From Endomicrobium sp. (lineage in GTDB: Bacteria > Elusimicrobiota > Endomicrobiia > Endomicrobiales > Endomicrobiaceae), in the NCBI GenBank assembly GCA_031261715.1, contig JAISJB010000001.1, positions 1 to 64,000 on the forward strand: a stretch of 64,000 bases of DNA. Reading direction: 5' to 3'. The position numbers and the translations under genes are program-made. Shown here piece after piece: positions 8,602-12,251 of this stretch. The notes below the pieces were generated by a model. That model worked only from the letters and a program-made list of their open reading frames with translations, had not been told where the DNA came from and made no database searches. Positions within the stretch are counted from its first letter, which is position 1. Every line of letters begins with the position of its first letter.

Positions 8602-9126
8602 ATGGCTAAACTGACTATCATAAAATATGGCGATTCAGTATTAAGAAAAAAAACAAGAAATCTATTATTAGAAGAAATTAATACTAATAATTCTATAATT
8701 CGTACTCTTGCATACAATATGATAGATACCATGCAGTGTGCTGAAGGTGTTGGGATTGCTGCTCCACAAGTTGGGATATCATTAAGTTTATGTATTATCA
8801 AGACGCCACAAGATCTATCTCAGACACTTGTTATGATTAATCCAAAAATAACTTTTAAAAATAATAATAAAACATGTTGTCAAGAAGGGTGTTTGTCATT
8901 ACCAGGAATATATGAAGATGTAAATAGATTTAGTGAAGTAATTTGTGAGTATATTAATCTCGATTGTAAACATTGTATTATTGAAGCAAGAGGTTTATTG
9001 TCTAGAATTATTCAACATGAAGTTGATCATTTAAACGCTAAGCTTTTTATAGATTATTTATCACAATGTAAAAAGTTACAGATTAATAAAATATTTAAAA
9101 CAAGAAAACAAAACGGATTATTGTAA
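8602..9126 (+). CDS. def: Peptide deformylase
   Basis: GVGIAAPQVG, EGCLSLPG, QHEVDHL motifs. Confidence 0.96.
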   Translation: MAKLTIIKYGDSVLRKKTRNLLLEEINTNNSIIRTLAYNMIDTMQCAEGVGIAAPQVGISLSLCIIKTPQDLSQTLVMINPKITFKNNNKTCCQEGCLSLPGIYEDVNRFSEVICEYINLDCKHCIIEARGLLSRIIQHEVDHLNAKLFIDYLSQCKKLQINKIFKTRKQNGLL

Positions 9127-10058
9127 TGAATATATTATTTTTTGGAACTTCATATATTGCACAACAATTTCTTTTTGAGTTATATAAAAATAAACATAAT
9201 ATTTTTGTAGTAACACTTCCAGACAAACCATATTATAAAAATGTTAACTTAGTAAAAAGCTATGCAGAATCTCATAACATTCCTTTGCTACAACCTGAAC
9301 TATTTAAACAAAATATTATTTCACAAATCATTAAATATAACGTAGATATTGGAGTAGTTATAGATTACGGAAAACTCATACCAAAAAAAGTATTTGATCT
9401 TCCACATTATAAAATTTTTAATATACATTTTTCTTTGTTACCACAATATAGAGGTGCAGCTCCTATTCAATATTCTCTATGCAATGGTGATTATGAAACA
9501 GGAGTAACATCTTTTTATATTGATCAAACTATAGATACTGGAGATATTATAATCCAAAAAAAACTTGACATTAAGTATAATGATAATGCATATACATTAC
9601 TGAAAAAACTTATACCATTAGGTATACATGTTATGAATCAAACTATTTTGGAGTTAGTGACTAAAAATGTCATTAATTTACCTCAACATGGTATACCTAG
9701 TTTTACTAAACGTATTAAAAAAAGTGATGGTTTCATTAACTGGCACCAAAGTGCCATAACAATATATAATAAATTTAGAGGGTTATATATATGGCCAGGA
9801 TTATACTCTATAATACTAAAAGGCAAATTAACTGGTAAAAGAATAAAATTTATAGATATGGAGATTTATGATTATGTTTCTATCAATAGTGAGCATGATC
9901 ATGGAACTATTGAGTCAATAAAAGCAAATAAAGGTTTTATTGTACTATGTTCAATTGGTAAACTGTTAATAACTAAAATACAAATTGAAGGAAAACCAAT
10001 TGTATCTGCTTGGAATTTTTTACAAGGGAATCAACTTCAAATTGGAGATAAAGTTTAA
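9126..10058 (+). CDS. fmt: Methionyl-tRNA formyltransferase
   Basis: FNIHFSLLPQYRGAAPIQ, DTGDII motifs; overlaps def. Confidence 0.95.
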   Translation: MNILFFGTSYIAQQFLFELYKNKHNIFVVTLPDKPYYKNVNLVKSYAESHNIPLLQPELFKQNIISQIIKYNVDIGVVIDYGKLIPKKVFDLPHYKIFNIHFSLLPQYRGAAPIQYSLCNGDYETGVTSFYIDQTIDTGDIIIQKKLDIKYNDNAYTLLKKLIPLGIHVMNQTILELVTKNVINLPQHGIPSFTKRIKKSDGFINWHQSAITIYNKFRGLYIWPGLYSIILKGKLTGKRIKFIDMEIYDYVSINSEHDHGTIESIKANKGFIVLCSIGKLLITKIQIEGKPIVSAWNFLQGNQLQIGDKV

Positions 10059-10111: not shown

Positions 10112-10435
10112 ATGATATTGGAAGTCAACGAAAACAATTTTGAATTGGAATTGAATAATATTAATGAAAAATCGTTAGTATTAGTAGATTTTTGGGCACC
10201 GTGGTGTGGGCCATGTAAAAAATTTGCTACAATACTTACTGATATTGATTTATTTTTTAAAGACAAACTCAGAATATTAAAAGTTAATACAGATAAAAAT
10301 GTGGGGTTGTCACAAAAATATAACGTTTTATCAATTCCATGCTTAATTTTATTAAAACAAAACAAAATCTTGAAACGAATAGTTGGTTGCTTATCAAAAA
10401 ATGAAATAAGTAAAATAATAGATACATATATCTAA
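10112..10435 (+). CDS. trxA: Thioredoxin
   Basis: FWAPWCGPCK active site; thioredoxin fold length. Confidence 0.94.
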   Translation: MILEVNENNFELELNNINEKSLVLVDFWAPWCGPCKKFATILTDIDLFFKDKLRILKVNTDKNVGLSQKYNVLSIPCLILLKQNKILKRIVGCLSKNEISKIIDTYI

Positions 10436-10448
10436 ATAGGAAAAAGAT

Positions 10449-11372
10449 ATGATTTACGATGTTATTATTGTAGGTGGTGGACCTGCAGGGTTAGCATCAG
10501 CTATTTATTCTTCTAAAAATAAATTAACAACATTACTTATTGAGAAGGCTAGTTGTGGTGGGAAGTTAGCAAATATTACATTACTAAATGATTATCCTGG
10601 TTTTAATGGAGGGATACAAGGTCTTGAACTTGCCACACGTTTTGAACAACATGCAAGATATTTTGGATCAAAAATAATATTTGATGAAGTTGTTTCAATT
10701 AATAATGATGCTGAAAAGATTAAAGTTATTAATACAGTAAATAAGAATTCTTATCAAGGTAGAGTGATTATTATTGCTTCTGGAACTCGTACAAGAACAT
10801 TAAATATAATTGGAGAATCACAATTTAATGGTAAAGGTGTATCGTTTTGTGCAATGTGTGATGCGCAATTTTTTAAAGATAGAGATGTTGTAGTAATAGG
10901 CAACAGCAGTTTTGCTATTAAAGAAGCTATATATTTATCACAATGTGTACATAGTGTTACTATCATAAGTAAATATCATAGATTATCAGCTAATCAAAAA
11001 TTACTAAATAAATTATTTTCATTAACCAATATTAATATTTTATATAATACAATCTTGAAAAAAATTTGTGGAACAGATATTGTGGAAAAGGTAGAAATTT
11101 ACAATATATGTACACAACAAAGTAAATATATAAATACAAATGGTGTATTTATTTCTATAGGGGCACAACCAAATAGTTTTTTCGTACCTGCTATAATACG
11201 AGATGAAAATGATTATATTATTACAAATAGTAATCTGAATACTTCAATTAAAGGAGTTTATGCGTGTGGTGATGTAAGACAAAACAGTATAAAGCAAGTG
11301 ATAACGTCTGTAGCTGAAGGTATTAAAGCTGCTATAAAGGCACATGCATACTACATTTATGCGTTCAAATAG
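10449..11372 (+). CDS. trxB: Thioredoxin reductase-like flavoprotein (NADPH motifs degenerate)
   Basis: GGGPAGLASAIY FAD motif, CAMC redox pair, GVYACGD; adjacent to trxA. Confidence 0.88.
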   Translation: MIYDVIIVGGGPAGLASAIYSSKNKLTTLLIEKASCGGKLANITLLNDYPGFNGGIQGLELATRFEQHARYFGSKIIFDEVVSINNDAEKIKVINTVNKNSYQGRVIIIASGTRTRTLNIIGESQFNGKGVSFCAMCDAQFFKDRDVVVIGNSSFAIKEAIYLSQCVHSVTIISKYHRLSANQKLLNKLFSLTNINILYNTILKKICGTDIVEKVEIYNICTQQSKYINTNGVFISIGAQPNSFFVPAIIRDENDYIITNSNLNTSIKGVYACGDVRQNSIKQVITSVAEGIKAAIKAHAYYIYAFK

Positions 11373-11384
11373 ATATTAATTTAA

Positions 11385-12251
11385 ATGACTGTAACAAATA
11401 GAAAATTATTTATTATTCTTGATGGTAATCTGTATATACATAGAACATATCATGCACTAAAACCTTTACATGTACAAGTTGGACATTATCAAGTTAGTGC
11501 TGTATATGGATTTTTTAAATTAATTTTTAAATTATTAAATATGTTCAAGCCTGATTATTTCTTAATATGTTTTGATTATCCAGCAAAATATTTTCGACAT
11601 GACATATTTCAAGATTATAAAAGTAATAGAAAGCCTTTAGAAAATTCACTTATTGATCAAATGAAAATTATAAGAGATGGAATAACTGCATTAAACATAA
11701 TGCAATTGGAAATAAAAGGTTATGAAGCTGATGATTTAATAGCAACAATAGTTAATCAAAATAGTTTGTACAATATTAAAATTATAGTTATATCAGGAGA
11801 TAAAGATATTTTACAATTAATTAATGATGATAGAGTCAAAGTTTGGGATGATGCTAAGCACATTATGTATTCTACTCAAGAAGTAAAAAGAAAATATGGA
11901 GTTACACCAAGACAATTAGTTGATGTATTATCATTAGCTGGCGATATTGTTGATAATATACCAGGCATTTATGGTATAGGCTTAAAAACTGCTATTAAAC
12001 TAATACAGCAATTTGGTACACTTGAAAATCTTTTTGACAACGTCAATTTTGTTAAAGGAAATTTAAATAAATTACTAATATTAGGTAAATATCAAGCAAT
12101 TCTTAGTAAAAGACTAATTAGATTAAATACAAATGTTCCATTACACTTCAGTCTAGCTAGTTGTGAAAAACAAAATATAGATATGAAAAAAGCGTATCCT
12201 TTTTTTAATAAATATAAACTAAATAGTTTTATTATAAAATATTGTTTATGA
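11385..12251 (+). CDS. 5'-3' exonuclease (PolA N-terminal domain only)
   Basis: DGNLYIHRTYHAL, YEADDLIATI, SGDKDILQL, DNIPGIYGIGLKTA motifs; stops at 288 aa, no polymerase domain. Confidence 0.92.
   Translation: MTVTNRKLFIILDGNLYIHRTYHALKPLHVQVGHYQVSAVYGFFKLIFKLLNMFKPDYFLICFDYPAKYFRHDIFQDYKSNRKPLENSLIDQMKIIRDGITALNIMQLEIKGYEADDLIATIVNQNSLYNIKIIVISGDKDILQLINDDRVKVWDDAKHIMYSTQEVKRKYGVTPRQLVDVLSLAGDIVDNIPGIYGIGLKTAIKLIQQFGTLENLFDNVNFVKGNLNKLLILGKYQAILSKRLIRLNTNVPLHFSLASCEKQNIDMKKAYPFFNKYKLNSFIIKYCL

Follow-up and report, generated by a model that had tools for sequence, protein, structure and literature searches.

A thioredoxin reductase homologue in Endomicrobium that lacks both NADPH-binding motifs

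The trxB locus and its altered motifs

The window, a 64,000-nucleotide stretch of Endomicrobium sp. DNA (assembly GCA_031261715.1, contig JAISJB010000001.1, positions 1 to 64,000), carried trxB within the gene order def-fmt-trxA-trxB-exonuclease-coaE-rho (Table 1). The def-to-rho order was seen again in the congeneric genomes G034, G031, G021, and G028, and trxA of G008 likewise lay within the def-to-rho stretch (G000 denotes the genome of the window and the other G numbers denote congeneric genomes). The PolA-like protein downstream of trxB consisted of a 5'-exonuclease domain alone (288 aa), with the polymerase part outside this frame. G000 comprises 483,639 bases in five contigs with 27% GC, among named relatives it is closest to Endomicrobium MAGs, and the organism is a termite-gut member of the Endomicrobiaceae. 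Small-genome, low-GC Endomicrobiaceae are flagellate endosymbionts, now reclassified as Endomicrobiellum (PMC11257099). Outside the window, G000 also contained two similar, non-identical ORFs of ~900 aa that resemble valyl-tRNA synthetase (C1:3877-6531 and C4:26025-28796), pointing to either a duplicated gene or admixture of another strain in the assembly.

Table 1. Genes of the trxB locus and motifs of the encoded TrxB, with positions in the window.
Feature	Position	Strand	Basis
def, upstream syntenic neighbor	8602..9126	+	ORF, shared gene order
fmt, upstream syntenic neighbor	9126..10058	+	ORF, shared gene order
trxA, thioredoxin (WCGPC), presumed TrxB substrate	10112..10435	+	ORF; adjoins trxB also in G034, G031, G021, G028
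trxB, thioredoxin reductase homologue, both NADPH motifs lost	10449..11372	+	ORF, ATG start, 307 aa
FAD-binding GGGPAG, residues 9-14, kept	10473..10490	+	sequence and alignment
Trx-binding GKG, residues 128-130, kept	10830..10838	+	alignment; motif defined in PMC9025218, PMC5627308
Redox pair CAMC, residues 134-137, kept	10848..10859	+	sequence and alignment
Trx-binding FF, residues 141-142, kept	10869..10874	+	alignment
Pyrophosphate motif, formerly GGGDSA, now GNSSFA, residues 151-156	10899..10916	+	sequence and alignment
2'-phosphate motif, formerly HRRxxxR, now SKYHRLS, residues 174-180	10968..10988	+	sequence and alignment
Second FAD motif ACGD, residues 272-275, kept	11262..11273	+	alignment
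5'-exonuclease domain protein (short PolA-like), downstream syntenic neighbor	11385..12251	+	ORF, shared gene order

The encoded TrxB scored 143 bits against Pfam PF07992 and was the sole strong TrxB match in G000, a 79% complete genome. A prior sequence-only reading had noted that the FAD motif, the CAMC pair, and the C-terminal GD motif are kept and that both NADPH-binding motifs are replaced; all of these features were confirmed, with GNSSFAIKE and SKYHRLS standing where NADPH-dependent thioredoxin reductases (NTRs) have GGGxxAxE and HRRxxxR. Because the columns flanking both motifs aligned in about 50 relatives, and the GGG/D/S and HR columns were at least 94% conserved among 33 congeneric TrxBs, the motif loss is not an alignment slip, and since G034, G031, and G021 carry related changes, an assembly error confined to one genome is excluded. 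NADH enzymes typically carry an acidic residue where HRR sits, and no acidic residue replaced HRR in the motif alignment. Against NCBIfam TIGR01292, TrxB scored 319.2 bits, below the thioredoxin reductase equivalog cut-off of 343.45 bits; the fully altered proteins of G034 (314.9 bits) and G021 (309.0 bits) also failed, whereas the partially altered protein of G028 (355.9 bits) passed. AF2 predicted the TrxB fold with high confidence (mean pLDDT 95) in a conformation resembling the FR state (TM 0.84 to L. lactis 5mh4, 0.63 to the FO structure 5mjk).

Distribution and origin of the altered enzymes

Among congeneric genomes, 41 carried trxB, and 34 of these retained both NADPH motifs, some in slightly varied form (for example, NRRSKL in G002 and HRNAKLR in G018). 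Four genomes, which are among the smallest, had lost both motifs: G000 (GNSSFA, SKYHRLS), G034 (GNSKVA, NKNNKLN), G031 (GNNETA, NKKNKFM), and G021 (GNNDNT, YSKNKFN). Loss was partial in the remaining three, where the HRR site was altered and a GGGDSA-like motif was present: G008 (GGSDSA, YRGSKLR), G027 (HRR site YRGNDLR), and G028 (HRR site CKNDKLK). The FAD motifs, CxxC, and the Trx-binding F were kept in all four full-loss species, and GKG was kept in three, with GNG in G021. Genomes with an altered TrxB were smaller, with an estimated median of 635 versus 1235 kb (Mann-Whitney p = 1e-4, relatedness ignored). Beside the TrxB without NADPH motifs in G034, TrxA (L161:14951-15280) had the active site WCTPC instead of WCGPC.

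In the TrxB gene tree, the altered proteins nested within Endomicrobium TrxB, and window TrxB, with its conserved synteny, grouped inside the NADPH-TrxR lineage. A clade with FFTR-like reference proteins (clostridial L090-L093, 5nii being the best solved relative of L091) was rejected (AU p = 1.4e-5 and 0.003), and any resemblance to FFTRs is therefore convergent. Membership in the FFTR type, which the sequence-only reading had named as an example of NADPH-independent reductases with altered motifs, was thus not borne out; of the outcomes which that reading had set against its own proposal, placement among classical TrxRs and close relatives sharing the altered motifs were both found. Window TrxB thus represents a known enzyme in a convergent variant specific to this lineage. 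It is a vertically inherited low-molecular-weight NADPH-TrxR whose NADPH site was probably lost as the genome shrank.

A single ancestral loss of both motifs was favored by the TrxB gene tree and rejected by 51 other genes. First, in a 51-gene tree built without trxB (17,446 sites), G021 was sister to the motif-intact G029 (100/100), and the same alignment rejected the single-loss topology (AU p = 6e-5). Second, the neighbor genes likewise rejected this topology (p = 0.0096). Third, we discounted support from the TrxB tree because it includes the columns of the trait itself; when residues 147-228 were dropped, the branch for a single loss was not resolved. As a species marker, rpoB failed, being found in 21 of 42 genomes. 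Full loss therefore arose at least twice independently, barring regain in G029. The parsimony count was two when full loss alone was scored and four when partial loss was added; the HRR change occurred separately in G028/G008 and in G027.

Constraint on TrxB and electron supply

Conserved sites in the four full-loss species were lost from residues 147-228 (13 of 22) more often than elsewhere (19 of 81; Fisher p = 0.002), and only two of 20 conserved glycines were lost, both in GGG. This concentration shows that motif loss was not chance scatter. The trxB frame was open in all four species, the other 18 conserved glycines were kept, as were the four conserved cysteines, CxxC among them, trxA still adjoined trxB, and dN/dS outside the NADPH domain was 0.34-0.48 (all dN/dS values are crude pairwise NG86 estimates). 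These features make it improbable that TrxB is simply decaying, weak or nearly useless in shrinking genomes and with its NADPH domain lost first, even though erosion would fit the association of altered TrxB with small genomes, the AT-driven Arg-to-Lys changes elsewhere in TrxB, and a relaxed dN/dS, which was 0.38-0.47 within G000/G034/G031 versus 0.16-0.31 for pairs keeping GGGDSA and, for G021/G029, ~0.98 within the NADPH domain but 0.34 outside it. TrxB was also among the faster-evolving proteins (3rd-17th percentile in comparisons with G034, G031, and G021; 29th for the G029/G028 pair). Erosion would fit the trxB gene of G031 as well (L163, C1 near 209,880), in which no ATG, GTG, or TTG codon occurs from the preceding stop to residue ~180 and ATT or ATA would have to serve as the start; this anomaly may stem from use of a rare start codon, from misassembly, or from decay. 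Our reading is that the enzyme is being maintained while its NADPH domain has been freed from constraint, although early decay fits part of the data.

A shortage of NADPH as the cause of site loss was rejected for G000, G034, and G031, all of which have NAD kinase (NADK). NfnAB was present in G000, G031, G028, and G029. With both NAD kinase and NfnAB retained, G000 probably still makes NADPH, and the NADPH motif of its NfnB (GGGNTA...YRR) is intact, which marks the change as TrxB-specific. G000 also carried a four-subunit pyruvate:ferredoxin oxidoreductase (PFOR) and a 62-aa 2[4Fe4S] ferredoxin (C2:141254-141442), and its place in the Endomicrobium clade agrees with the anaerobic symbiont that the sequence-only reading had envisaged. 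PFOR alpha was found in all four full-loss species and a small ferredoxin in G000, G031, and G021; no free ferredoxin was found in the 63% complete G034. No [FeFe] hydrogenase was found in the four full-loss genomes, although G029 has one. As the MAGs of G000, G034, and G031 are 79, 63, and 76% complete, three chance misses of hydrogenase are unlikely (~0.02 by simple arithmetic). Hydrogenase was also absent from 6 of 37 other genomes, its absence occurs elsewhere alongside intact TrxB, and its link to full loss was not significant with independent pairs. We dropped G021, where NADK, NfnAB, and hydrogenase seemed to be missing, as a natural experiment, because this MAG is incomplete (it lacks part of the tRNA set and holds only 168 of 345 genes common to G000, G029, and G031) and its missing genes prove little. 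Endomicrobiaceae lineages that lost NADH- and ferredoxin-reoxidizing enzymes have been reported (PMC11257099); the main text of that comparative paper mentions neither thioredoxin nor NADPH. A search by short motifs alone matched none of the Trx clients peroxiredoxin, Msr, and NrdD.

Known reductases and the candidate electron donor

Window TrxB shares its fold, FAD motifs, CxxC, Trx-binding residues, and gene lineage with low-Mr NTRs (TIGR01292), but differs in lacking both NADPH motifs and in falling below the family cut-off. FFTRs are defined by lack of the NADPH motif and presence of FAD, CxxC, GR/KG, and F motifs (PMC9025218), and pass electrons from ferredoxin via FAD and CxxC to Trx (PMC12796991); the FAD of Gloeobacter FFTR has a midpoint potential of -448 mV (PMC12796991). 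Like the FFTRs of Gloeobacter and Clostridium, window TrxB lacks GxGxxA and HRR and has FAD, CxxC, and GR/KG...F motifs, and its GNSSFA resembles the GHKDFA of the FFTR-like L090/L091; by contrast, it belongs to a separate lineage, its use of ferredoxin is putative, and its tail (AHAYYIYAFK) lacks the Trp of the flavin-stacking C-terminal tail of cyanobacterial FFTRs. DvTRi, which does not use NAD(P)H, has a similarly degraded site in which one Lys occupies the Arg176 position (PMC5627308). Window TrxB resembles this type of anaerobes in its degenerate pyrophosphate motif, retained Trx-binding residues, anaerobic host, and one basic residue (K175) at the Arg176 position. However, TQ/NGK replaces HRRD in TRi, compared with SKYH here, NKNN in G034, and NKKN in G031, and TR1 accompanies TRi in most of its hosts (PMC5627308), whereas window TrxB is the only TrxB of G000. 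GKG and FF exclude DDOR, which lacks GR/KG and FF, and GKG/FF and CxxC exclude a TrxR-type FNR. A TrxB-like frame of Epulopiscium sp. Nuni2H_MBin001 (L094, match 255-1127) has GNNCRT aligned at the NADPH motif and seemingly lacks the second active-site Cys (CVSAE).

Homologues with comparable changes, DvTRi (PMC5627308) and FFTR (PMC12796991, PMC9025218), are NADPH-independent, and NADPH is probably not the donor of window TrxB, a conclusion for which the sequence gives good support; on this point, the sequence-only reading was probably right in kind. Continued use of NADPH or NADH with weaker binding, under a low symbiont thiol load, seems unlikely. Two of the three motif glycines and both HRR arginine columns are lost, no acidic NADH signature has taken their place, similar changes arose twice, and DvTRi, with GEG and one Lys, lacks NAD(P)H activity (PMC5627308); these points weigh against the retention of K175, A156, and E159 in G000 and G034, the confidently predicted fold, the presence of NADK and NfnAB, and the intermediate appearance of the partial states in G028 and G027, all of which would fit residual use.

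By analogy to FFTR (PMC12796991) and DvTRi (PMC5627308), the likeliest path would run from ferredoxin via FAD and CAMC to TrxA. TrxB would still work as a TrxA reductase after loss of its NADPH site: PFOR would charge the 2[4Fe4S] ferredoxin, reduced ferredoxin would hand electrons singly to the FAD of TrxB, FADH2 would reduce the CAMC disulfide following the usual domain rotation, and the CAMC dithiol would reduce TrxA held via GKG/FF. We give ferredoxin about an even chance of being the donor, and a ferredoxin-fed, NADPH-independent TrxB, the best overall reading, is itself about as likely as not. No ferredoxin-docking feature was identified in window TrxB, and neither pI nor the C-terminal tails showed a ferredoxin signature. 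Also counting against the ferredoxin model are the seeming availability of NADPH in G000 and G031 and the fast evolution of TrxB, as expected of erosion. Other donors to CAMC or FAD, whether a dithiol or a different flavoprotein (candidates being lipoamide, host thiols, NfnAB, and PyrK-type FAD proteins), are very unlikely, as no candidate has a gene pairing or sequence signature and Lpd was not found in the incomplete G021, although Lpd occurs in G000, G031, and G029, NfnAB is present in several genomes, and glutathione has been proposed as the donor of the related DDOR (PMC9025218).

The ferredoxin model can be extended, more doubtfully, to a scheme in which flagellate endosymbionts undergoing genome reduction repeatedly converted their sole NADPH-TrxR in place to a ferredoxin-driven enzyme, a recent convergent re-invention of FFTR that would also help to unload ferredoxin after hydrogenase loss. 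A change of donor is hard to trace in FFTR and TRi because these are separate, long-established lineages. Here, intact, half-altered, and fully altered orthologues occur together in a single genus with a shared gene order, and the fully altered state was reached independently at least twice; these intermediates and repeats make the switch, or decay, testable step by step. The automated annotation 'NADPH thioredoxin reductase' is unsafe in reduced genomes.
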